A program made the position numbers and the translations under genes. From positions 1 to 40,327 of the forward strand of contig JAENZX010000034.1 of the NCBI GenBank assembly GCA_016841045.1: 40,327 nucleotides of DNA. Reading direction: 5' to 3'. Shown here one piece after another: positions 13,813 to 35,964 of this stretch. The notes below the pieces were generated by a model that worked only from the letters and a program-made list of their open reading frames with translations, was not told the DNA's origin and made no database searches. This DNA is from Thermincola carboxydiphila (GTDB lineage: Bacteria; Bacillota; Thermincolia; Thermincolales; UBA2595). Each line of letters begins with the position of its first letter. Position 1 is the first letter of the stretch.

Positions 13813-15681
13813 ATGAAGCTGTTAAAACCTGTAGGACTTATTCTGTTTTTCGTAATTGTGTATTTCTCTCTGGGCTGCTCTGCTACGCAGGCGCAGTCTT
13901 TTTATGCTGAAAAGGGGGTGCTGGATTTAACGCAATGGGACTTTAACCGGGACGGGAATGTGCAGCTGAATGGAGAGTGGGAGTTCTATTGGAGTCAGCT
14001 CTTAACCTCCCGGGGTTTGCAGCTAAAGAAACCTGATTTGTATGTTAAGGTGCCGGAGTATTGGAACTCCTATAAACTCAATGGCAAAAATCTTCCCGGA
14101 AAGGGATATGCCACATATAGATTAAGGGTTAAAACAAACCTCCCGCCAGGGACTTTGTTAGGTTTAGAGCTGCATACGTTTTCCAGTGCTTATAAATTGT
14201 TTGTTAACGAAAAGCCGATTGCCTCCAATGGCAGGGTAGCTCAAAGGGCTGCAGATGAAATTGGTGAATACAGGCCCCAGGGTATTGTCTTTGTCACTCC
14301 TGCCAGAGATTTTGATATTCTTTTACAGGTCTCTAATTTTCAATACGCCAGGGGTGGTTTTTGGTATACGGTGTCAATGGGGAGCGCCGCTAATATTATG
14401 ACACTGCATAGCATGAAAATCGGTAAGGAATTGTTTCTTTTAGGCGCTTTGCTGATTATTTCCATATTTTTCTTTGCCATTTACTTTTTACGTAAGGAGT
14501 TAAAATACACTCTATATTTCGCCCTGCTTTGCCTGGCTATAGCTATAGGTGTTGATGGGGCAGGTCAGTTTATACTGTATAAGGCTATTGACTTTTTAAG
14601 TTTTAGTTCTATACTTCGGATATGGTATTCTTCGCCGGAATGGATTTTATTATTGCTGATTCTCTATGTGCATGAGTTGTATAAGTCGAAATTATCGGCA
14701 TTCATTACCCGGGTTTATTTTGTAATCTGCGTGGTGCTGCAATGCATATACTTTTTTACCCCGCCGGCATTTTTTAGCAGGCTGGGCCTGATCAATAATT
14801 ACATAGAGATAATTGGACTGGCCGGTACGATAGTGATTGTGGGCTTAGGAATAAAAAACGGAGCAAAAGGTGCCTGGTTAAATATTGCCAGTATGGCTGT
14901 GGTGGGTATATCATACGGGCATGACGTATTATACTGGACCAATGTTTTACACCACAGCTTCGGGGAGACCGTTTACATCGGGATATTATTGTTTGTTTTA
15001 CTGCAAATGATAGTTCAGGCACAGCGAATAAAGATATTTCATGAACAGAAGACGGCTGCTGAACTGGCCTTCCTGCAGGCCCAGATTAAGCCCCATTTTC
15101 TGTACAATGCCTTAAATACCTTCATTTCAATATCCCATTTTGACATGGATAAAGCGAGAGAGCTTTTGACAGACCTCGGCAACTACCTGCGTAAAAGTTT
15201 TGATTTCAGAGATCTAAGTCAGTTTGTACCACTGAAGAGTGAAATAGAATTGGCTAAAGCCTATACAGCTATTGAAAAAGCCCGTTTTGAAGAGCGTATT
15301 GAAGTTAACTTTGAGGTGCCGGAAGATTTGGAGGTAAGGGTGCCCAGACTGGTGCTGCAGCCGCTGATTGAGAACGCGCTGATACATGGCATTCTCCCCA
15401 GGCCCGAAGGGGGTAAGGTTACCGTATCTGTTAAACGGGCAGGGAACCGGATTCATTTCAGTGTAAAAGACAATGGAGTCGGGATGCCCGGAGAAACGTT
15501 GGGGTCAGGACTTAGACATAAATCCGGCAGGGGAATCGGGCTGGCCAATATTGATTCCAGGATACGCAAACTGTTCGGAAAAGGGTTGGAAATTGTAAGT
15601 CCGGACACCGGAACTGAGATAAGATGGTCTATGCCAATCAACACCAGGGAGGATCGACATAATAATGATAAAAATGATTAA
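13813..15681 (+). CDS. Sensor histidine kinase, 7TM-DISM with LytS/YehU-type kinase domain
   Basis: A 622-residue membrane sensor. The N-terminus is a signal peptide with a lipobox-like SLGCSA. Residues ~30-190 form an extracytoplasmic beta-rich domain (DFNRDGNVQLNGEWEFYW) of the 7TMR-DISM extracellular type. About seven hydrophobic helices follow (residues ~200-405). The kinase part has the LytS-family phospho-acceptor box AQIKPHFLYNALNTFISIS (His near 428) and the ATPase motifs LVLQPLIENALIHGI, VKDNGVGMP and GRGIGLANI. GGAG at 13797-13800 precedes the ATG. It overlaps the next gene, a response regulator, so they form a two-component pair. The signal is unknown; the locus suggests control of surface proteins. 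Confidence 0.9.
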   Translation: MKLLKPVGLILFFVIVYFSLGCSATQAQSFYAEKGVLDLTQWDFNRDGNVQLNGEWEFYWSQLLTSRGLQLKKPDLYVKVPEYWNSYKLNGKNLPGKGYATYRLRVKTNLPPGTLLGLELHTFSSAYKLFVNEKPIASNGRVAQRAADEIGEYRPQGIVFVTPARDFDILLQVSNFQYARGGFWYTVSMGSAANIMTLHSMKIGKELFLLGALLIISIFFFAIYFLRKELKYTLYFALLCLAIAIGVDGAGQFILYKAIDFLSFSSILRIWYSSPEWILLLLILYVHELYKSKLSAFITRVYFVICVVLQCIYFFTPPAFFSRLGLINNYIEIIGLAGTIVIVGLGIKNGAKGAWLNIASMAVVGISYGHDVLYWTNVLHHSFGETVYIGILLFVLLQMIVQAQRIKIFHEQKTAAELAFLQAQIKPHFLYNALNTFISISHFDMDKARELLTDLGNYLRKSFDFRDLSQFVPLKSEIELAKAYTAIEKARFEERIEVNFEVPEDLEVRVPRLVLQPLIENALIHGILPRPEGGKVTVSVKRAGNRIHFSVKDNGVGMPGETLGSGLRHKSGRGIGLANIDSRIRKLFGKGLEIVSPDTGTEIRWSMPINTREDRHNNDKND

Positions 15682-16774
15682 AGCAGTCTTGATTGATGAT
15701 GAAAGACCGGCATTGAGATGCCTGGAACACTTACTGCAAGATTATCCGGCAGTAGAAATTGCAGGTGCATTTATCAATCCGCTGGAGGCACTTGAGCAAA
15801 TAGCAGATATCAAGCCACGTATCGTATTTCTGGACATCCATATGCCGCAGCTGCAGGGGATAGATGCAGCCTCCGGGATACTGGATCAGTGTCCGGACAC
15901 AGACATCATTTTTGTCACTGCCTTCGACCAGTATGCTATAGAGGCTTTTGAGCTTCATGCCCTGGATTACATACTAAAACCCATTGCCAAAGAGCGCTTT
16001 GCCAAAACGCTGCAGCGGTTGATAAACAAGAACAGCCATTTACAGGTTGATACCAAAATGAGGCTTGAAATAAAATGTTTTGGCCGGTTTCAAATGGGAT
16101 GGACCGGGGAAGAACCGATAAAATGGCGCACAGAGAAAACCAGAGAACTTTTTGCCTTTTTGCTTCATCACCAGGGGCGGGAAGTTTCGAAAGATGAAAT
16201 CATTGACAATCTCTGGCCTGAAGTGGAACTGGACAAGGCGGTTCACCAGCTCCACAATGGAATTTACTATATCCGTAAAACCCTGGCCCAGTCCGGCATA
16301 GACCGCTCACTGGTCAGCATTTCCGGGAGTTACTCCATGAAGCTGGGTGAAGTGGCATTTGATGTCAGGCTTTTTCGGGAGGGCCTGAAGAAAGTCAGCG
16401 ACAGTATTGCCTTAGAAGACCTGGCGGCACTTGAAGCAATATACACGGGAGAATACATGGCAGGGACTGACTGGGTCTGGGCAGACCTTGAGCGTGAGGT
16501 CCTTTCGCGAAAATATGCTGAAATTATGGAGCGGCTGGCACAGGACTACATTGAGCAAGAAGAATTCGGCAGGGCAGAAGAGCTTCTGATAAAGGCCTTT
16601 GACAGAAATCCATATGACGAAGGTGTTTCCAGGCTTTTATTAAAGCTCTACCGCCTGACCGGTGACAAGGTCAAAGCAGTTAAGCATTATGCCAAATATG
16701 AACAGATATTGCAGGAAGAGCTTGGTATCAAGCCACAGGAGAGAATTCGTCAGGAGTATACAGCCATAACTTAG
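15665..16774 (+). CDS. Response regulator with SARP-like output (receiver + winged helix + BTAD)
   Basis: A 369-residue cytoplasmic transcription factor. The receiver (residues ~5-125) keeps the acidic pair in LIDDE, phospho-acceptor Asp57 in VFLDIHMPQ, Thr85 in FVTAFDQY and Lys105 in YILKPI. Residues ~135-225 form an OmpR-type winged helix as in SARP regulators (CFGRFQMGW, KTRELFAFLLHHQGREVSKD). Residues ~230-365 are a bacterial transcriptional activator domain of TPR-like helices (LLLKLYRLTGDKVKAVKHY). The start overlaps the kinase by 17 bases and has GGGAGG upstream. It probably receives phosphate from the adjacent kinase and may bind the 11-bp repeats at 16890-16922. Confidence 0.9.
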   Translation: MIKMIKAVLIDDERPALRCLEHLLQDYPAVEIAGAFINPLEALEQIADIKPRIVFLDIHMPQLQGIDAASGILDQCPDTDIIFVTAFDQYAIEAFELHALDYILKPIAKERFAKTLQRLINKNSHLQVDTKMRLEIKCFGRFQMGWTGEEPIKWRTEKTRELFAFLLHHQGREVSKDEIIDNLWPEVELDKAVHQLHNGIYYIRKTLAQSGIDRSLVSISGSYSMKLGEVAFDVRLFREGLKKVSDSIALEDLAALEAIYTGEYMAGTDWVWADLEREVLSRKYAEIMERLAQDYIEQEEFGRAEELLIKAFDRNPYDEGVSRLLLKLYRLTGDKVKAVKHYAKYEQILQEELGIKPQERIRQEYTAIT

Positions 16775-16831: not shown

Positions 16832-16872
16832 AACCGTACATCTGTCATTTGACCGGTGTGCGGTTATTTTTT
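16832..16872 (+). terminator. Terminator after the response regulator
   Basis: An 11-bp stem with two G-U pairs (16832-16842 with 16855-16865) is followed by ATTTTTT. It separates the two-component operon from the next promoter. Confidence 0.75.
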
Positions 16873-16889: not shown

Positions 16890-16931
16890 GGAGAATTTTG
16901 GGAGAATTCTGGGAGAATCGGGTTGTATAAT
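16890..16931 (+). promoter_or_regulatory. Promoter with three tandem 11-bp repeats (SARP-type activator site)
   Basis: GGAGAATTTTG, GGAGAATTCTG and GGAGAATCGGG run without gaps from 16890 to 16922. TATAAT follows at 16926-16931, leaving 7 bp between the last GGAGAAT heptamer and the -10 box. There is no consensus -35; the repeats occupy that place. Known SARP activators bind heptamers repeated every 11 bp that end about 8 bp before the -10. It drives the degenerate receiver gene and probably the first SLH protein. Confidence 0.75.
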
Positions 16932-16982: not shown

Positions 16983-17354
16983 GTGCGGGTTTGTATTCTT
17001 GATAAGGGCGGTGCGGGGATGGACAAGATTATTGCCTGGCTGGCAGAAAACCCCGGTATCAGGGAAGTATCGGTTATCAAAGACCCTGATGAGTTTGTGA
17101 CCCGGGTTGAGCGGGAACCACCGGAAATGGTTTTTATCCGCTTGGGCAGTTATGATATTCCGGGACTAACCGTAGGCCAGATGGTGAAGGAGATAATTCC
17201 GGATATCAAAGTAGTTTTTGTGGCTGAAGAAAGGGATTATGCTTTAGATGCTTTTGAGGTGGGGGCTTATGGGTATCTGCTGTGTCCGGTAGAGAGAAAT
17301 AAGCTGGAGAAGATACTTTTCACAATAGGTCAAAAATCTATTGCAGGTAAGTAG
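16983..17354 (+). CDS. Degenerate receiver-like protein
   Basis: A 123-residue stand-alone protein with the shape of a response-regulator receiver but without its chemistry. Compared with the functional receiver encoded at 15665, the phospho-acceptor Asp is replaced (VFIRLGSYDIPG in place of VFLDIHMP), the Thr is lost (FVAEERDYALDAFE), the Lys of the KP motif is Cys (YLLCPV), and the first acidic pair is reduced to one Asp (CILDKGG). The GTG start lies behind GGGGAGGTG; the ATG two bases earlier leads out of frame. It probably acts by protein binding and not by phosphorylation. It lies 25 bp before the SLH protein and likely shares its transcript. Confidence 0.8.
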   Translation: MRVCILDKGGAGMDKIIAWLAENPGIREVSVIKDPDEFVTRVEREPPEMVFIRLGSYDIPGLTVGQMVKEIIPDIKVVFVAEERDYALDAFEVGAYGYLLCPVERNKLEKILFTIGQKSIAGK

Positions 17355-17379
17355 CAAAATGAAAGGGGATGGAAAGTGT

Positions 17380-20300
17380 ATGGTGAAGAAAAGGCAATGG
17401 AAAAAAGCAGGGGTTATATTAACTGTGGTGGTCTTATTGATGCAGTTGATTATACCGGCTGGCGGCGCTTATGCTGAAGCAGTTGCAGCAACTCAACCCC
17501 CTGGAAGTGGAGTGGAAGGAGACCCGTATCTGATTTCAACACCTGGCCACCTGTTATGGATGTCTGAAAATAATACCACCAATTGGAGTTTTGACGGGAA
17601 GTATTTTAAACAGACAGCAGATATTGATATGACTGGGATAGACTTTTTGCCAATAGGGGATATAGGGAATTATTTCGCGGGCAAATATAATGGGAACGGT
17701 CATAAGATTTCTAATCTGTCCATAAATACCGGCATTCGTACAGGTGTAGGATTATTTGGTTCTGTTCATGGGAACCAAGCACTGGTAAGAAGCCTGACAC
17801 TTGAAAATGTTGCCATAATCAATAGTAAGACAATAGGTACATATAATTACGTTGGCGGTATTGCCGGTGAAAATGAAGCTACTATTGAATACTGCAATAT
17901 AACGGGCACAAGTACCATTTCTGCAACCGGTAATGCTATGGCCGGAGGTATTACCGGTTACAGTGTTGGTGGAATTGTAAGGAATTGTTCCAACTCAGCC
18001 GATGTTTCCACTAACTATGCCGGCGATGGGGGATCTCGCTCTGCCGGTGGGATAGTTGGAGAAAATGCTTCCTTCAGTGTTATAGAAAATTGTTTGAATA
18101 TCGGAAATATTACTCTGGGTCCTACCACTTCAGCAGAGGCCGGCAGTGGTGGAATTACCGGTAAAAACTATAACAGCTATGGAGATCAGGGTATTGTACG
18201 ATACACCCTGAATTTGGGTACTGTTACCAAAACCGATAATGGTCAGGCAGGTGGGATTATTGGTTATGATGAAGGTGGGGTAACAACTTCAACTTATTTC
18301 CTGAGCAGTGCGGCCCCTAATGGGATTGGTTATGATGTCACATTAACGGGAGCAACAGATACTAATGCTGAGCCCCAGACTGCCGAAAATCTAAAGGATG
18401 TCAATACCTATACCGGTTGGAATTTTGACACGGTTTGGAAGCTGGACCCGCTGGTTAATAACGGATTCCCTCATTTGATTCCGCTGCTGCCGGAATTTGA
18501 TGGTATTTCTGCGGAAATTGGCAATGACATGGGGGAAACGTTAATCAACGTTGCGGATAGTTTAGGGATTGACAACCGTCTGGTCATTAAGTTTGCCGAA
18601 GCGCCGATAGCAACACCTCTGTATGGGTCGGCGGCGCCGCAGGGCGAAACTGTAACAGACCCATATATCTCTGGCGAAAACTTCAGTATCGATGCTGATG
18701 TCTATAAATATATCGGTGTATATGAAGTGAATCAAACTGATGAAGTAGTCAAATTCAGTGAGGTTACGCCAAACGTCAGGTATATGGAGGGACTTGGCAC
18801 TGCAGAAGCCCCGTTTCAGGTTACCAATGCCTATCAGCTTTCGAAGGTATATTGTAACCCCGATGACTATTACAGGCTCATGGCCGATATTGATATGACC
18901 GGTGTTTCTGACTATATTCCAATAGGCACCGACAATTTAAACAGGTTCAATGGGACCTTTGACGGAGACAACCATATCATAAGCAATTTAACATTAACCA
19001 GCGGTGATTACTCTTATTTGGGGCTCTTTGGACAGATTGGCAGCGGGACTGTTAGAGACCTGGAATTGAAAGACATCACAATAAACAATACAAAGGCATG
19101 GGCGGACGGAGCAGGAGGTTTAACCGGCTTAAATCTGGAAGGGACAATTTCGAATTGCCGGGTCACCGGAAACAGTACCATTACCGGTGGTGCATCAGTA
19201 GGCGGTATAGCCGGTGAACATGATGGCGGCAGCATTGAACAGTGCTCGAATAATGCAAGTATTGCAGCAAATGTGGATTATTCCTATTATGTGGGTGGGA
19301 TTGCCGGTGGATACTGGGGAGGCAGTATTACTGACTGTTATAATACCGGCTCTGTCACAGGGAACGATGGCGCTGAAACAGGGGGAATAGTCGGTGAAGC
19401 ATGGCCATGGCCAGACGATTTTACCAGAAATTGTTACAATACAGGAACGGTTAGCACCGGCTCTAGTGTAGGAGGTATTGCGGGATATTGGGGTGACGGC
19501 ATTCTGGAGAATACTTATTTTCTTGATACGTCAGCAGAATTACCTTATGGAGCCGATGATACGGGAAGTGCACAGGCAGTGGCCAGGACTTCTGCGGAGA
19601 TGCAGGACCGGAATACTTACACCGGCTGGGACTTCACAGAAACATGGGCTATCGATAGTGATATTAATTCAGGGTTTCCCTATTTGCAGGGGGCGCAGGA
19701 GGAACTCACCCCAGTGGGGATAACCGGCAACTGGGCAGACAATGCAGCTGCAGCTGAGGGCACTGACTATTCCGTAATTGGAGCTGTCTATACCATTAAA
19801 ACAGCTGTAGGGCTTGCCTGGCTGGCCCGGCAGGTAAATGGCGGGGATTCGTTCAGCGGCAAAACAGTTGAACTGGATAGTGATCTGGATATCTCAGACC
19901 ATTATTGGATACCTATTGGAACTGCTCATCCCAACTATTATTCATTTGCCGGTGTTTTTGACGGTAAAGGCCATAAAATCACCGGACTCAGCATTGGTAC
20001 CAGCGTTGAGTCACCTGGTACAAATGGCTTTGAGGGACTTTTTAGCGTTATTGGCAGTGATGGTGAAATAAAGCACCTGGGTGTTGAAGGGGCAGTATAT
20101 GCCGGTGCCGGTGAGTATGGCGGAATACTTGCAGCAGTCAATTACGGTGAAATAACAGATTGTTATACAAGGGGAGAAATAGCCGGTGCCAACGGCGCTG
20201 TCTTTATTGGCGGATTAGTTGCCTCCAATGAAGAGGGGCTGATAGCAAACAGCTACTCTACAGCCGATGCGGCAAGCAGTGATTATGATACCTTCCCTCC

Positions 20301-22155
20301 CGCAGCCGGGGGATTGGTCGGCAGAAATACGGGCAGCGGTAACTATGGAATTATCGTCAACAGTTTTGCCACGGGTAATGTCAGTGTAGGTTCAGGCTCA
20401 TTCGGAAATACCGCTTATGCCGGCGGACTGGTTGGAGTAAATGAAAACAAAGGCAGGATTGAAAACTGTTTTGCCACCGGAAACATCACCGGTGGAGCAA
20501 ATGCCGGAATTGGCGGGATGGTTGGCTTTTTGCATAACGGCTTTGATGAATTGGTGCCCAATGCGAAGAATGTCTACTGGAACAGTGATGCAGTCCATAC
20601 GCTAAATGGCAGTGCCTTGGATTTGGCAGATAAAAAAGGCGCCGGTGAGATGCTCGTTGGTTCGGATACTACAACATCTAAGACAGCAGACGATATAAAG
20701 GCATCAGCTTTTGTCACTGAGCTCAATAACAATATAACCGGCAGTACATCTGTGCCGAATACTGGCTATTTGGCCTGGGGTCCGGATGAGGCTAATGAAA
20801 ATAACGGTTATCCTGTAATAACTGATGAACCTGTCAACACAGGTACTCAGCCAGGTGACGATGATGGAGACGGCGGCGGTGGCGGCGGAGGCTCCACCGG
20901 CAACACCATCTCTGTAGAACAGGATGGCAGGAGCACTCAGGTGCCCGGAACAATTTCCTCCGGTACCGATGGAGAAAGGACTACTGCAACCATCAAGGCT
21001 GATGATGCAGCTATCCAGAAACTTGTGAACGATGGCGCCAAGGGAACCGTGATTACCCTGCCGGTAAATAGCGCTGCTGATGTCGTCACCGGTCAGTTAA
21101 ACGGGCAGACCGTGAAAACCATGGAACAGAGGGAAGCTGTCCTGGAAGTCAAAACAAACAATGTGACCTATAAATTGCCAGCATCACAAATAAATATTGA
21201 TGACATAAGCAAACAATTGGGCCAACAGGTTGAGCTAAAAGACGTCAGGGTAGATGTCACCATAGCCGCACCTTCCGCAGATACAGTCAAAATAGTTGAG
21301 GATGCTGCCAATAAGGATAACTATCAAATAGTTGTAAACCCGGTAGAATTTAATATTACCTGCACCAGCGGCGGCAACACGGTTGAAGTCACCAAATTCA
21401 ATGCCTATGTTGAAAGGACCGTGGCCATACCGGATGGGGTTGATTCGGCAAAAATCACTACAGGGATTATCGTGGAGTCTGACGGAACCGCAAGACACGT
21501 GCCAACAAAGATAACTGTGGTCAACGGCAGACACTATGCTGTCATCAACAGCCTGACCAACAGTACCTATTCGGTCATATGGCATCCCCTGGAGTTCAGT
21601 GATGTAATCGGCCACTGGGCCAGGGAAGCCGTCAACGATATGGGCTCAAGAATGGTTATCAGCGGAATTGGCAACGGTATGTTTGAGCCTGACCGTGATA
21701 TCACCAGGGCTGAATTTGCGGCTATTCTGGTAAGGGGACTGGGCCTGCAGCCAGGAGAAGGGAGCAAGAGCTTTAAAGACGTGGATTCTTCTAAATGGTA
21801 CTCTGACTACATCAAAACGGCTTATGAATACAAGATTATCTCAGGCTATGATGCAGATACCTTCGGACCATCGGATAAAATAACCCGTGAACAGGCAATG
21901 GCCATGACAGCCAGGGCAATGGCAATCACCGAGCTGCCGACGGATATTTCATCTGGTGAAACAGACAAACTTCTGGCCGGTTTTACCGATGCAGCCCAGG
22001 CGGCAGATTACGCCAAAGACAGCATAGCGGTATGTGTAAAGACCGGAGTTGTGTCGGGCAGAAGCAGCACCATAGTTGCCCCCAAGGATAACATAACAAG
22101 AGCGGAAATTGCGGTTATCATAAAGAGATTATTACAGAAGTCGGACCTGATATAA
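17380..22155 (+). CDS. Large secreted SLH protein with GLUG repeats
   Basis: About 1591 residues. A signal peptide (KKRQWKKAGVILTVVVLL, cleavage after AYA near residue 32) is followed by three blocks that each open with a PYxIxT-like strand (near residues 48, 485 and 800) and continue into repeats of the GLUG type (SVGGIAGEHDGGSIEQCSN and similar), probably a beta-helix. A Gly/Asp linker near residues 1160-1175 leads to a ~230-residue module shared with the SLH protein at 22409. Three SLH domains follow (FSDVIGHWAREAV, FKDVDSSKWYSDYI, FTDAAQAADYAKDSI) that should bind the pyruvylated cell-wall polymer. ATG 17380 follows GGAAAG; ATG 17359 is the alternative. It is likely a surface-layer or adhesion protein. 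Confidence 0.9.
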   Translation: MVKKRQWKKAGVILTVVVLLMQLIIPAGGAYAEAVAATQPPGSGVEGDPYLISTPGHLLWMSENNTTNWSFDGKYFKQTADIDMTGIDFLPIGDIGNYFAGKYNGNGHKISNLSINTGIRTGVGLFGSVHGNQALVRSLTLENVAIINSKTIGTYNYVGGIAGENEATIEYCNITGTSTISATGNAMAGGITGYSVGGIVRNCSNSADVSTNYAGDGGSRSAGGIVGENASFSVIENCLNIGNITLGPTTSAEAGSGGITGKNYNSYGDQGIVRYTLNLGTVTKTDNGQAGGIIGYDEGGVTTSTYFLSSAAPNGIGYDVTLTGATDTNAEPQTAENLKDVNTYTGWNFDTVWKLDPLVNNGFPHLIPLLPEFDGISAEIGNDMGETLINVADSLGIDNRLVIKFAEAPIATPLYGSAAPQGETVTDPYISGENFSIDADVYKYIGVYEVNQTDEVVKFSEVTPNVRYMEGLGTAEAPFQVTNAYQLSKVYCNPDDYYRLMADIDMTGVSDYIPIGTDNLNRFNGTFDGDNHIISNLTLTSGDYSYLGLFGQIGSGTVRDLELKDITINNTKAWADGAGGLTGLNLEGTISNCRVTGNSTITGGASVGGIAGEHDGGSIEQCSNNASIAANVDYSYYVGGIAGGYWGGSITDCYNTGSVTGNDGAETGGIVGEAWPWPDDFTRNCYNTGTVSTGSSVGGIAGYWGDGILENTYFLDTSAELPYGADDTGSAQAVARTSAEMQDRNTYTGWDFTETWAIDSDINSGFPYLQGAQEELTPVGITGNWADNAAAAEGTDYSVIGAVYTIKTAVGLAWLARQVNGGDSFSGKTVELDSDLDISDHYWIPIGTAHPNYYSFAGVFDGKGHKITGLSIGTSVESPGTNGFEGLFSVIGSDGEIKHLGVEGAVYAGAGEYGGILAAVNYGEITDCYTRGEIAGANGAVFIGGLVASNEEGLIANSYSTADAASSDYDTFPPAAGGLVGRNTGSGNYGIIVNSFATGNVSVGSGSFGNTAYAGGLVGVNENKGRIENCFATGNITGGANAGIGGMVGFLHNGFDELVPNAKNVYWNSDAVHTLNGSALDLADKKGAGEMLVGSDTTTSKTADDIKASAFVTELNNNITGSTSVPNTGYLAWGPDEANENNGYPVITDEPVNTGTQPGDDDGDGGGGGGGSTGNTISVEQDGRSTQVPGTISSGTDGERTTATIKADDAAIQKLVNDGAKGTVITLPVNSAADVVTGQLNGQTVKTMEQREAVLEVKTNNVTYKLPASQINIDDISKQLGQQVELKDVRVDVTIAAPSADTVKIVEDAANKDNYQIVVNPVEFNITCTSGGNTVEVTKFNAYVERTVAIPDGVDSAKITTGIIVESDGTARHVPTKITVVNGRHYAVINSLTNSTYSVIWHPLEFSDVIGHWAREAVNDMGSRMVISGIGNGMFEPDRDITRAEFAAILVRGLGLQPGEGSKSFKDVDSSKWYSDYIKTAYEYKIISGYDADTFGPSDKITREQAMAMTARAMAITELPTDISSGETDKLLAGFTDAAQAADYAKDSIAVCVKTGVVSGRSSTIVAPKDNITRAEIAVIIKRLLQKSDLI

Positions 22156-22243
22156 CTGTAATCAAGCGGCTTTTGTGTAAAAAGCTTAATCAAATCACCA
22201 AAATATTCTGATACAGCACCGGAATCTTAGATTTTTACCTGCA

Positions 22244-22275
22244 AAATGCCCTGTAGTTCACTACAGGGCATTTTT
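22244..22275 (+). terminator. Strong terminator after the first SLH protein
   Basis: A perfect 13-bp stem AAATGCCCTGTAG with loop TTCA (22244-22256 with 22261-22273) runs into a T-tract. Confidence 0.9.
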
Positions 22276-22292
22276 GCCGTCAACTCTGTAGA

Positions 22293-22325
22293 TTACCTTT
22301 CGTCACCGCATATTTACCTTTCGTC
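22293..22325 (+). repeat. Direct repeat upstream of the giant SLH gene
   Basis: TTACCTTTCGTC occurs at 22293-22304 and 22314-22325, a 21-bp period or about two helical turns, some 85 bp before the start of the next gene. It could be a regulator-binding site. No consensus -35/-10 pair was identified nearby; TACAAT at 22357-22362 is the best -10 candidate. Confidence 0.45.
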
Positions 22326-22408
22326 CCAAAATTCGCCTTTTTATGTCGAATTTTGTTACAATTCCTAAGTAGGGACAGGTATAAGGCACAAATGAAAGGG
22401 GTTTTTTT

Positions 22409-33782: not shown

Positions 33783-33810
33783 ACGATATGTTAACTGTCC
33801 TGCGTCTCAA
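33783..33810 (-). promoter_or_regulatory. Possible promoter of the LamG gene
   Basis: On the minus strand TTGAGA (33810-33805) and TATCGT (33788-33783) are spaced by 16 bp. The -10 is a poor match, so this is tentative. Confidence 0.3.
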
Positions 33811-33855
33811 AAATGTCTTAAAATCACATTGGCCAATTCCGGCCCCAAGAAGCAC

Positions 33856-33894: not shown

Positions 33895-35964
33895 TTAGAT
33901 ATTTAGGTTTAGGTCAGCCTGAACCTGCTTTAGGATATACCTGAAGCCGATTTTTTTAAACAGACTGATGCTTTTCGTTATTAGATGCGTGGCCTCGGAA
34001 GTCTTGCCTTTTGCTCTGGCAATCAATCCATCTGCCCAGAATAGATGAGCCGGGGTCCATATTTCACCTTCATCCATTGTTCTTCGTGCCCTTTTGCAGC
34101 AGACTTCGGCAGCTCCCACCTTCCCGGCCTTGGCTAAGGCTGCAGCCCGCAGGCTGTAAAAGAGTGCCTCATGCTCATACAGTCCTCTGGCTCGTGTAAT
34201 ACGTACTCCAACAGAAGCCCAGCATGCGGCCCCTGCGAAGTTTTCTAATGCACACATTTCGGCTGTCAAATGACGTACCCCTCCACAGGCATAATGGAAA
34301 GGAGATTTGACTAAGTTTTTCCTAAGCCAGGACTCAAAATTTTTTACGGCTGTCCTATGGTCAATACCCTCTGAACACCGCGTCAAAAGATACATAAACT
34401 TCTTTTCTAATTCAAAGCCGACTAACTGGTCCGGAGGGTCAAAGAATTCAATCTCATCGTGCCTGTCCTGCAGGTAAAGCAGGAAGATCAGCTGGCCCCG
34501 GGCCAGGTACTCTGTCAACTTAATCCTCGGTATCTGTGTTACTGCCTGAGTGAGGTCAATTGCTTCCCTCATAAATCTCTCGGCAGAACGCAGGTCACCC
34601 GACATTTGGGCAAAAATACTTCGATAGAACACAATTTTCAGCACATCATGGATATCGTTGAAATACGCCAGGGCCTGAACAGCTTTATCCAGGGCAGCAT
34701 GGGCTTCTTTCATCCGGTTCCCTGCCATACGGGCGATTCCTAAAATCAGCAGGAAAGAGGATTCGGAGCATTTGTCGTTTGGTTCAGTTACAATCTTAAG
34801 GCCCTCTTCACAAAAGGCGGCGGCTTCATCAATACGCCCGCTCTGCCAGGAGGCATCTGCAGCAAGCAGCAGGGCTCTGCGTAAACTGGGGTTTTTACCT
34901 TCCAACCGGTAATGGGAGAGTGCCGCTTTGATATAGTTAAGTGCTTTGTCCGGCTGTGGAGTTGTAGGGGTATAAAGAAGCGAGGTTCCCGTGGCGAGGT
35001 AAACAACTGCTTTCGCTTCAGCATCGCCCAGCTTCTCATATACATTCAGGGCTTTTTTAAGGGCTTTCATGCCTCCTTCGATGTTACCCTGAAGCGCCAT
35101 ATCTTCTCCGGATACAACAAGAAAGCTTGCATTGCGCAGAGCATCTTTGGACAGACGTTTGGTTTGCCGTGCTCTTATTTTTTGTGTGGTGTTGCTGTTT
35201 TTCAAACCAGGCAGCCGGTTTTCGGTAATCTTAAGGTCAGATAATCCTAATTCCCTGTAAAGGTTCATGGTCTCATTGCCTGGAAGGATTCCAAGTTCCG
35301 CTGCAAGAGTTTGTTTGCAGATCTCATATTGCTGTACGGCTCTAGCCAGCTGGCCTGTTTTCACGTAAATACTCATCAAAGCCCGGTAAGCCGCTTCATT
35401 CAGAGGGTCTTTTAACAGCCACTGATGCGCATAAGTTAGGGCTTTCTCGTAAAGACCGGATACACAAAGATTTTGCACAAGTGTCTCCAGAATCCCTAAG
35501 TAGATATCTAAAATGCGGTTTCTCTCCACCAGGCACCAGTCTGTATCAACACCGTCAAGGAAATCACCTTGGTAAATTGATACGGCATTAGCAAGGTGCC
35601 TGACATTTTCCCTGTTTTCACCCAGGCCCAGCTCCGCTTCCTTTTCAAAGGCATATAAATCAACACAGATGTCGGGTCCGGTTAGCACCCGTATGGCACC
35701 GGGTTTCCATTCAAGAATAGAATCATTATAGCCATGGGTTTTAAGTGCTTTTTTTAGATAATAAATGGCTTGTCTAAGGTATGCTGAAGCTCTTCTTTCG
35801 TCACAATCACCCCAAAAAATATCCTGCAAAAAGTCACGTCTAACCCACCTGCCCTGCTGCCAAAAGAGATAGGCTGCCAGTTGTTTTGCCTTGGCAGTCG
35901 GTAAAGTAATTTCTTCATTTATGTTATAGATTCCAAATAAACCAAGCAACTGTACTTTTATCAT
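33895..35964 (-). CDS. SARP-like transcriptional regulator with BTAD and TPR repeats
   Basis: A 689-residue cytoplasmic regulator. Residues ~1-95 form the OmpR-type winged helix typical of SARP proteins (VQLLGLFGIYNINEEITLPT, KAKQLAAYLFWQQGRWV). Residues ~100-245 are the BTAD helical domain (YQGDFLDGVDTDWCLVERNR, ALTYAHQWLLKDPLNEAAYR). Residues ~285-685 contain a run of TPR-like helix pairs (GGMKALKKALNVYEKLGD and others). There is no receiver and no NB-ARC ATPase, so it is likely controlled by ligand or protein binding to the TPR part. GAGGGA precedes the ATG. It is oriented with the LamG/lipoprotein genes, which may be its targets. Confidence 0.87.
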   Translation of the reverse strand: MIKVQLLGLFGIYNINEEITLPTAKAKQLAAYLFWQQGRWVRRDFLQDIFWGDCDERRASAYLRQAIYYLKKALKTHGYNDSILEWKPGAIRVLTGPDICVDLYAFEKEAELGLGENRENVRHLANAVSIYQGDFLDGVDTDWCLVERNRILDIYLGILETLVQNLCVSGLYEKALTYAHQWLLKDPLNEAAYRALMSIYVKTGQLARAVQQYEICKQTLAAELGILPGNETMNLYRELGLSDLKITENRLPGLKNSNTTQKIRARQTKRLSKDALRNASFLVVSGEDMALQGNIEGGMKALKKALNVYEKLGDAEAKAVVYLATGTSLLYTPTTPQPDKALNYIKAALSHYRLEGKNPSLRRALLLAADASWQSGRIDEAAAFCEEGLKIVTEPNDKCSESSFLLILGIARMAGNRMKEAHAALDKAVQALAYFNDIHDVLKIVFYRSIFAQMSGDLRSAERFMREAIDLTQAVTQIPRIKLTEYLARGQLIFLLYLQDRHDEIEFFDPPDQLVGFELEKKFMYLLTRCSEGIDHRTAVKNFESWLRKNLVKSPFHYACGGVRHLTAEMCALENFAGAACWASVGVRITRARGLYEHEALFYSLRAAALAKAGKVGAAEVCCKRARRTMDEGEIWTPAHLFWADGLIARAKGKTSEATHLITKSISLFKKIGFRYILKQVQADLNLNI

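Follow-up and report, generated by a model that had tools for sequence, protein, structure and literature searches.

An 11-bp triple repeat as the likely operator of an adjoining receiver-wHTH-BTAD response regulator

SARP activators bind direct repeats that lie 11 or 22 bp apart, the 3' repeat being placed 8 bp from the -10 element (PMC10936776). For AfsR, the site consists of two 11-bp repeats spanning -40 to -19; every protomer touches the initial 8 bp of one repeat, and the protein stands in for a -35 element by providing a docking site for sigma region 4 (PMC10936776). The operator of PimR consists of three heptamers with 4-bp spacers (PMC5930380). In Mycobacterium, the activity of EmbR is set by phosphorylation, and its FHA domain is read by Ser/Thr kinases. 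Response regulators of the COG3947 type are listed in databases as a class; no operator, target or mechanism for them was found in the literature searched. Both the receiver-BTAD regulator class and the SARP promoter rule are already known, and no paper joining BTAD response regulators outside actinomycetes to that rule was found in the open-access literature searched (subscription papers and preprints lay outside its scope).

The window analysed here is a stretch of 40,327 nucleotides. On its forward strand, read directly, the heptamer GGAGAAT occurs at 16890-16896, 16901-16907 and 16912-16918, its starts following one another with a period of exactly 11 and 11 bp. The third, promoter-proximal copy is separated by CGGGTTG (16919-16925) from a -10 hexamer, TATAAT, at 16926-16931; a sigma-70 -35 partner was sought 16-18 bp away on the + strand and none was found. 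A preliminary description of the window had claimed three gapless 11-bp GGAGAAT copies, 7 bp to TATAAT and no consensus -35, all of which held exactly. The unit itself has been corrected, being better written GGGAGAAT than with a GGAGAAT start: copies 2 and 3 are longer than the heptamer and, as supported by the covariation comparison described below, lie inside GGGAGAAT at 16900-16907 and 16911-16918. The spacing to the -10 is 7 bp when counted from GGAGAAT and 8 bp when counted from GGGAGAA. When -12 to -7 is assigned to the -10, the span of the two proximal repeats is -40 to -19, as for the AfsR sites, and a third unit lies upstream. A terminator-like hairpin with a T-run (16850-16866, + strand) separates the regulator operon from this promoter.

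The triple repeat is not the product of chance. In 300 shuffled windows an exact heptamer triple with a lag of 11 never appeared, and the present one is the sole instance among 890,818 bases of related loci. A whole-genome search for the three heptamers, with no more than 3 mismatches allowed in total, returned the 16890-16931 site alone, while a search with two heptamers and the -10 returned one perfect site, the runners-up carrying 2 mismatches. Other GGAGAAT repeats 11 bp apart before a TATAAT, the search for which had been proposed at the outset, gave no other perfect site in the genome. A second target in the genome was also sought, and only partial matches were obtained (28 vs 16 with a reversed-pattern control, and so not far above it).

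The gene at 13813-15681 (+ strand) encodes a sensor histidine kinase of 622 aa with 7TMR-DISM, His_kinase and HATPase_c domains (Pfam and ORF table). It overlaps by 17 bp the gene at 15665-16774 (+ strand), which encodes a response regulator of 369 aa composed of a receiver, an OmpR-type wHTH and a BTAD, as judged by Pfam, alignment and a match to AfsR. The receiver, whose best NCBIfam profile is BtsR, retains D12/E13 (the acidic pocket), D57, T85 and K105 in the alignment; a conserved receiver adjoining a histidine kinase gene meets the criterion for a two-component system. In the C-terminal half, Trans_reg_C (residues 156-214) is followed directly by BTAD (250-368), as is required of a SARP, and the presence of the BTAD means that the regulator does not qualify as an OmpR/PhoB-type protein without this domain. 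Its recognition helix is AVHQLHNGIYYIRKTL. This half matches the SARP domain of AfsR in sequence (E 1.5e-10), and the same domain is the top match for the predicted fold of residues 132-369 (Z 20.6, 233 residues, rmsd 3.1; pLDDT of the model 86.9). A scan of the genome contigs with the regulator as query yielded unrelated receivers only.

A second BTAD regulator is encoded in the window by a wHTH-BTAD-TPR gene at 33895-35964. After this gene, at 33788-33821 on the - strand, TTAAGACATTT TTGAGACGCAG GACAGT TAACAT is found in the same register as at 16890-16931. Its repeat scores 6/9, a score equalled in 11% of random 400-bp windows; the gene downstream encodes a secreted lectin-like protein. In addition, the gene for a shorter paralogous regulator in the same genome (L059) has GTAAAGATTTT GTAAAGATGTA TGTCGT TATAAT on its 3' side, with a Mutator-type transposase gene further downstream.

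From the match to AfsR in sequence and fold, the -40 to -19 span and the three-unit parallel with PimR, the most likely explanation is therefore a SARP-type activator under the control of phosphorylation, together with its operator. It is very likely, in our view, that the adjoining receiver-wHTH-BTAD regulator uses the repeats as its operator, although no binding or expression data are available. In this model the 7TMR-DISM kinase would phosphorylate the regulator, whose SARP-like half (wHTH and BTAD) would bind the repeats side by side, each 11-bp unit taking up a single protomer; two of the protomers, those nearest the promoter, would lie at about -40 to -19 and the third upstream. The bound regulator would provide the contact for RNA polymerase sigma region 4 that a missing -35 cannot, and the promoter, with its good -10 (TATAAT), would be switched on to express an operon for a pseudo-receiver and an SLH surface protein. 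Alternatively, the repeats might be a repressor operator, at which the regulator, phosphorylated or not, blocks the promoter. From their position the sites are inferred to overlap the -35 region, where bound protein could exclude the polymerase. However, the promoter has no -35, the position is that of the AfsR activator sites (-40 to -19) and the fold is of an activator type, all of which make repression very unlikely.

The arrangement was looked for at homologous regulator loci, within 400 bp 3' of each regulator: with positions counted from a -10-like hexamer, the 9-mer spanning -17 to -9 was scored for its repetition at a given lag. The first set comprised 57 loci, the window included, drawn from searches of its own genome, of relatives and of 398 genomes of the phylum. 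At lag 11, 13/57 loci reached at least 8/9, vs 0-2 at each of the 17 remaining lags between 7 and 24; Markov shuffles of the same test gave a mean of 0.11 and a maximum of 1. A second set of 65 loci (L186-L250), all from one large family (f23), shared no locus with the first. Here, 10/65 loci reached at least 7/9 at lag 11 vs 0-4 at other lags, and 3/65 reached at least 8/9 vs 0 or 1; the effect is weaker in this family. The lag-11 excess in this second set (at least 7/9) corresponds to a Poisson probability of ~2e-6 if the loci are assumed to be independent. The loci are not phylogenetically independent, and the second set is not fully independent of the first because some of its regulators are up to 99% identical to earlier ones (three of the L102 type). 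Sites of this kind adjoin BTAD regulators in many families, and the 11-bp arrangement is recurrent across genomes of the phylum and not a one-off. The SARP rule, which the preliminary description had fixed beforehand, was thereby put to the test on other genomes, where it reappears, at lag 11 but not elsewhere, on the 3' side of homologous regulators.

The repeat unit varies by regulator subgroup, taking the forms GGGAGAA, TGRTGAAA, TGGTAAGA, GTTTAGTG, ATTTAGGG, TTTAAGAT, TGTTTAT and TGTTCAG. In a Mantel test on 32 loci, confined to pairs less than 60% identical overall, site similarity covaried with recognition-helix identity (r 0.41), a value not matched in any of 2000 permutations. The partial correlation was 0.33 for the helix given receiver identity and 0.02 for the receiver given helix identity. 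Some of the sites used fell below the 7/9 cut or were picked by eye (L061, L062, L064, L065, L108, L122 and L131); because not every site was called blind to the helix, and because the loci are related by descent, the permutation count is no clean probability. In our judgement the most informative case of a helix-heptamer match is L109, from another family, where the regulator is 50% identical and has the helix AVHQLHNCIYYIRKTL; the repeats GGGGGAG, GGGAGAA and GGGAGAA there follow one another every 11 bp on the upstream side of the genes preceding the regulator. L170, a later find, has a TGGTGAAA pair as its helix suggested, followed by a pseudo-receiver with the FIRLG motif. L066 and L119 share TGTTTAT and a helix type, with the sites at different positions. 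An Arg at the position of AfsR R92 accompanies GTRAG in 8/8 loci vs 1/24 (5/5 vs 1/14 when collapsed by hand), a link that was noticed post hoc and is merely suggestive.

It might be argued that the repeats serve a different response regulator of the OmpR/PhoB type encoded in the genome, tandem 11-bp half-sites that replace the -35 being a general habit of the wHTH class, as in pho boxes. PhoB-class regulators are indeed known to bind 11-bp tandem repeats near the -35, and the genome encodes several OmpR-type regulators. Against this, the heptamer follows the recognition helix of the adjoining BTAD regulator and not merely its receiver, and such sites stand beside BTAD regulators in many families, with a single one in this genome; the explanation is considered unlikely. 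A chance tandem repeat, or a functionless leftover of replication slippage, is all but excluded. Slippage does make short tandem repeats, and the two nearest orthologues lack this one, but the specificity for lag 11 in both locus sets (57 and 65), the GGGAGAA repeats in another family and the covariation of helix and heptamer all speak against such an origin. The proposal that the BTAD regulator activates this promoter, made originally from sequence alone, is supported by recurrence, covariation and the AfsR match. Binding, phosphorylation dependence, the direction of the effect (activation) and the sigma region 4 contact are inferred and unproven.

Not all loci conform. The nearest orthologues, L054 and L055 (53-55% identity, and nearly one locus twice), have no clear site, only a weak candidate scoring 5/9. 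They share their recognition helix with L105, and the exact repeat pair expected from this helix is absent from both genomes, so that the operator prediction failed here. The gene downstream has also changed. The operator may have drifted, or its position or form may have escaped recognition. Loss of the repeats in relatives that keep the regulator had been named as grounds for refutation; these are partly met by L054/L055. No site is seen near the regulator at many loci, those of the large-genome family f23 in particular, and none was found in the DNA examined for L171, L172, L177, L178 and L183. A search of the class to which G306 belongs gave no further close regulator.

The first gene of the target operon (16983-17354, + strand) encodes a mini pseudo-receiver of 123 aa (Pfam Response_reg and alignment), in which Arg takes the place of the phospho-acceptor Asp (FIRLG). 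It is followed at 17341-22155 (+ strand) by the gene for a large surface protein with three SLH domains, Glug and an SbsC-C-like region (Pfam and sequence); the ORF opens with TTG at 17341, and ATG at 17380 may be the true start. A hairpin ending in TTTTT (22243-22276, + strand), read by eye and not called by a simple scanner, is the probable end of the operon. Across the loci, a small receiver is often the first product of the putatively regulated operon. Arg or Lys stands in place of its phospho-acceptor Asp (FI[RK]LG-like) in the window, L056, L057, L068, L105, L136 and L170, whereas L064, L065, L116 and L117 keep the Asp. Among 23 proteins encoded near sites or regulators, SLH is found in 8/23, Glug in 7/23, CWB2 in 4 and fn3 in 4, and signalling proteins or a transposase account for a few. 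Giant SLH/Glug/CWB2 surface proteins make up most of the inferred targets, a small pseudo-receiver frequently standing ahead of them, in agreement with the earlier suggestion that the degenerate receiver and the large SLH protein are controlled from this promoter.

Beyond the target operon, two copies of ACCTTTCGTC (22295-22304 and 22316-22325) lie 21 bp apart and 31 bp before TACAAT at 22357-22362, preceding the gene for a 2760-aa lectin/SLH protein. In its format this pair resembles a double site of the LytTR type.

It is attractive to suppose that kinase-controlled SARP-type activators are found throughout the phylum, each with a private, helix-matched operator through which surface proteins are switched singly, and that the pseudo-receiver (Asp to Arg or Lys) gives feedback by pairing with the receiver of the activator. 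This bolder reading remains conjectural, and the balance tilts slightly against it. For response regulators of this class, which have no targets in the literature searched, the repeats supply a cis-code that can be put to the test, and they predict which giant surface protein answers to which sensor. The natural pairs of helix and heptamer could serve as a readout of DNA specificity in BTAD regulators. If the inferred binding and activation are correct, the SARP mode of activation would extend from antibiotic genes of actinomycetes to kinase-paired genes for surface proteins. The preliminary description knew of no SARP-style switch for S-layer proteins in a Firmicute, and no such paper was found in the open-access literature searched.

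Among known systems, BtsS/BtsR, a LytTR system with a 7TMR-type kinase, resembles the present pair in its LytS-like kinase with PF06580 and its similar receiver; it differs in having a LytTR output where the window regulator has wHTH-BTAD, and in its operator format. COG3947-type response regulators show an identical order of receiver, wHTH and BTAD. EmbR shares the wHTH-BTAD core (Z 18.9), but carries a C-terminal FHA domain in contrast to the N-terminal receiver and histidine kinase seen here. In promoter and DNA-binding architecture there is a likeness to the SARPs of Streptomyces (AfsR, ActII-4, DnrI and PimR), with an OmpR-type wHTH followed by a BTAD, direct repeats 11 bp apart, a 3' copy about 8 bp from the -10 and no good -35; the three-heptamer operator of PimR is paralleled at 16890-16918. 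Unlike the SARPs, which have either no additional domain or a C-terminal NOD/TPR region, the window regulator has an N-terminal phospho-receiver and a paired kinase, its genome is inferred to lie outside the actinomycetes, in a Firmicute-like phylum, its targets are surface proteins rather than antibiotic genes, and its -10 is strong. A target in a secondary-metabolite (antibiotic) cluster of an actinomycete, as expected of a SARP, is thus lacking. Such a target is the usual setting of the SARPs and not their mechanism, and the regulator is therefore best described as a variant with a SARP-like mode of action, rather than as a classical SARP.
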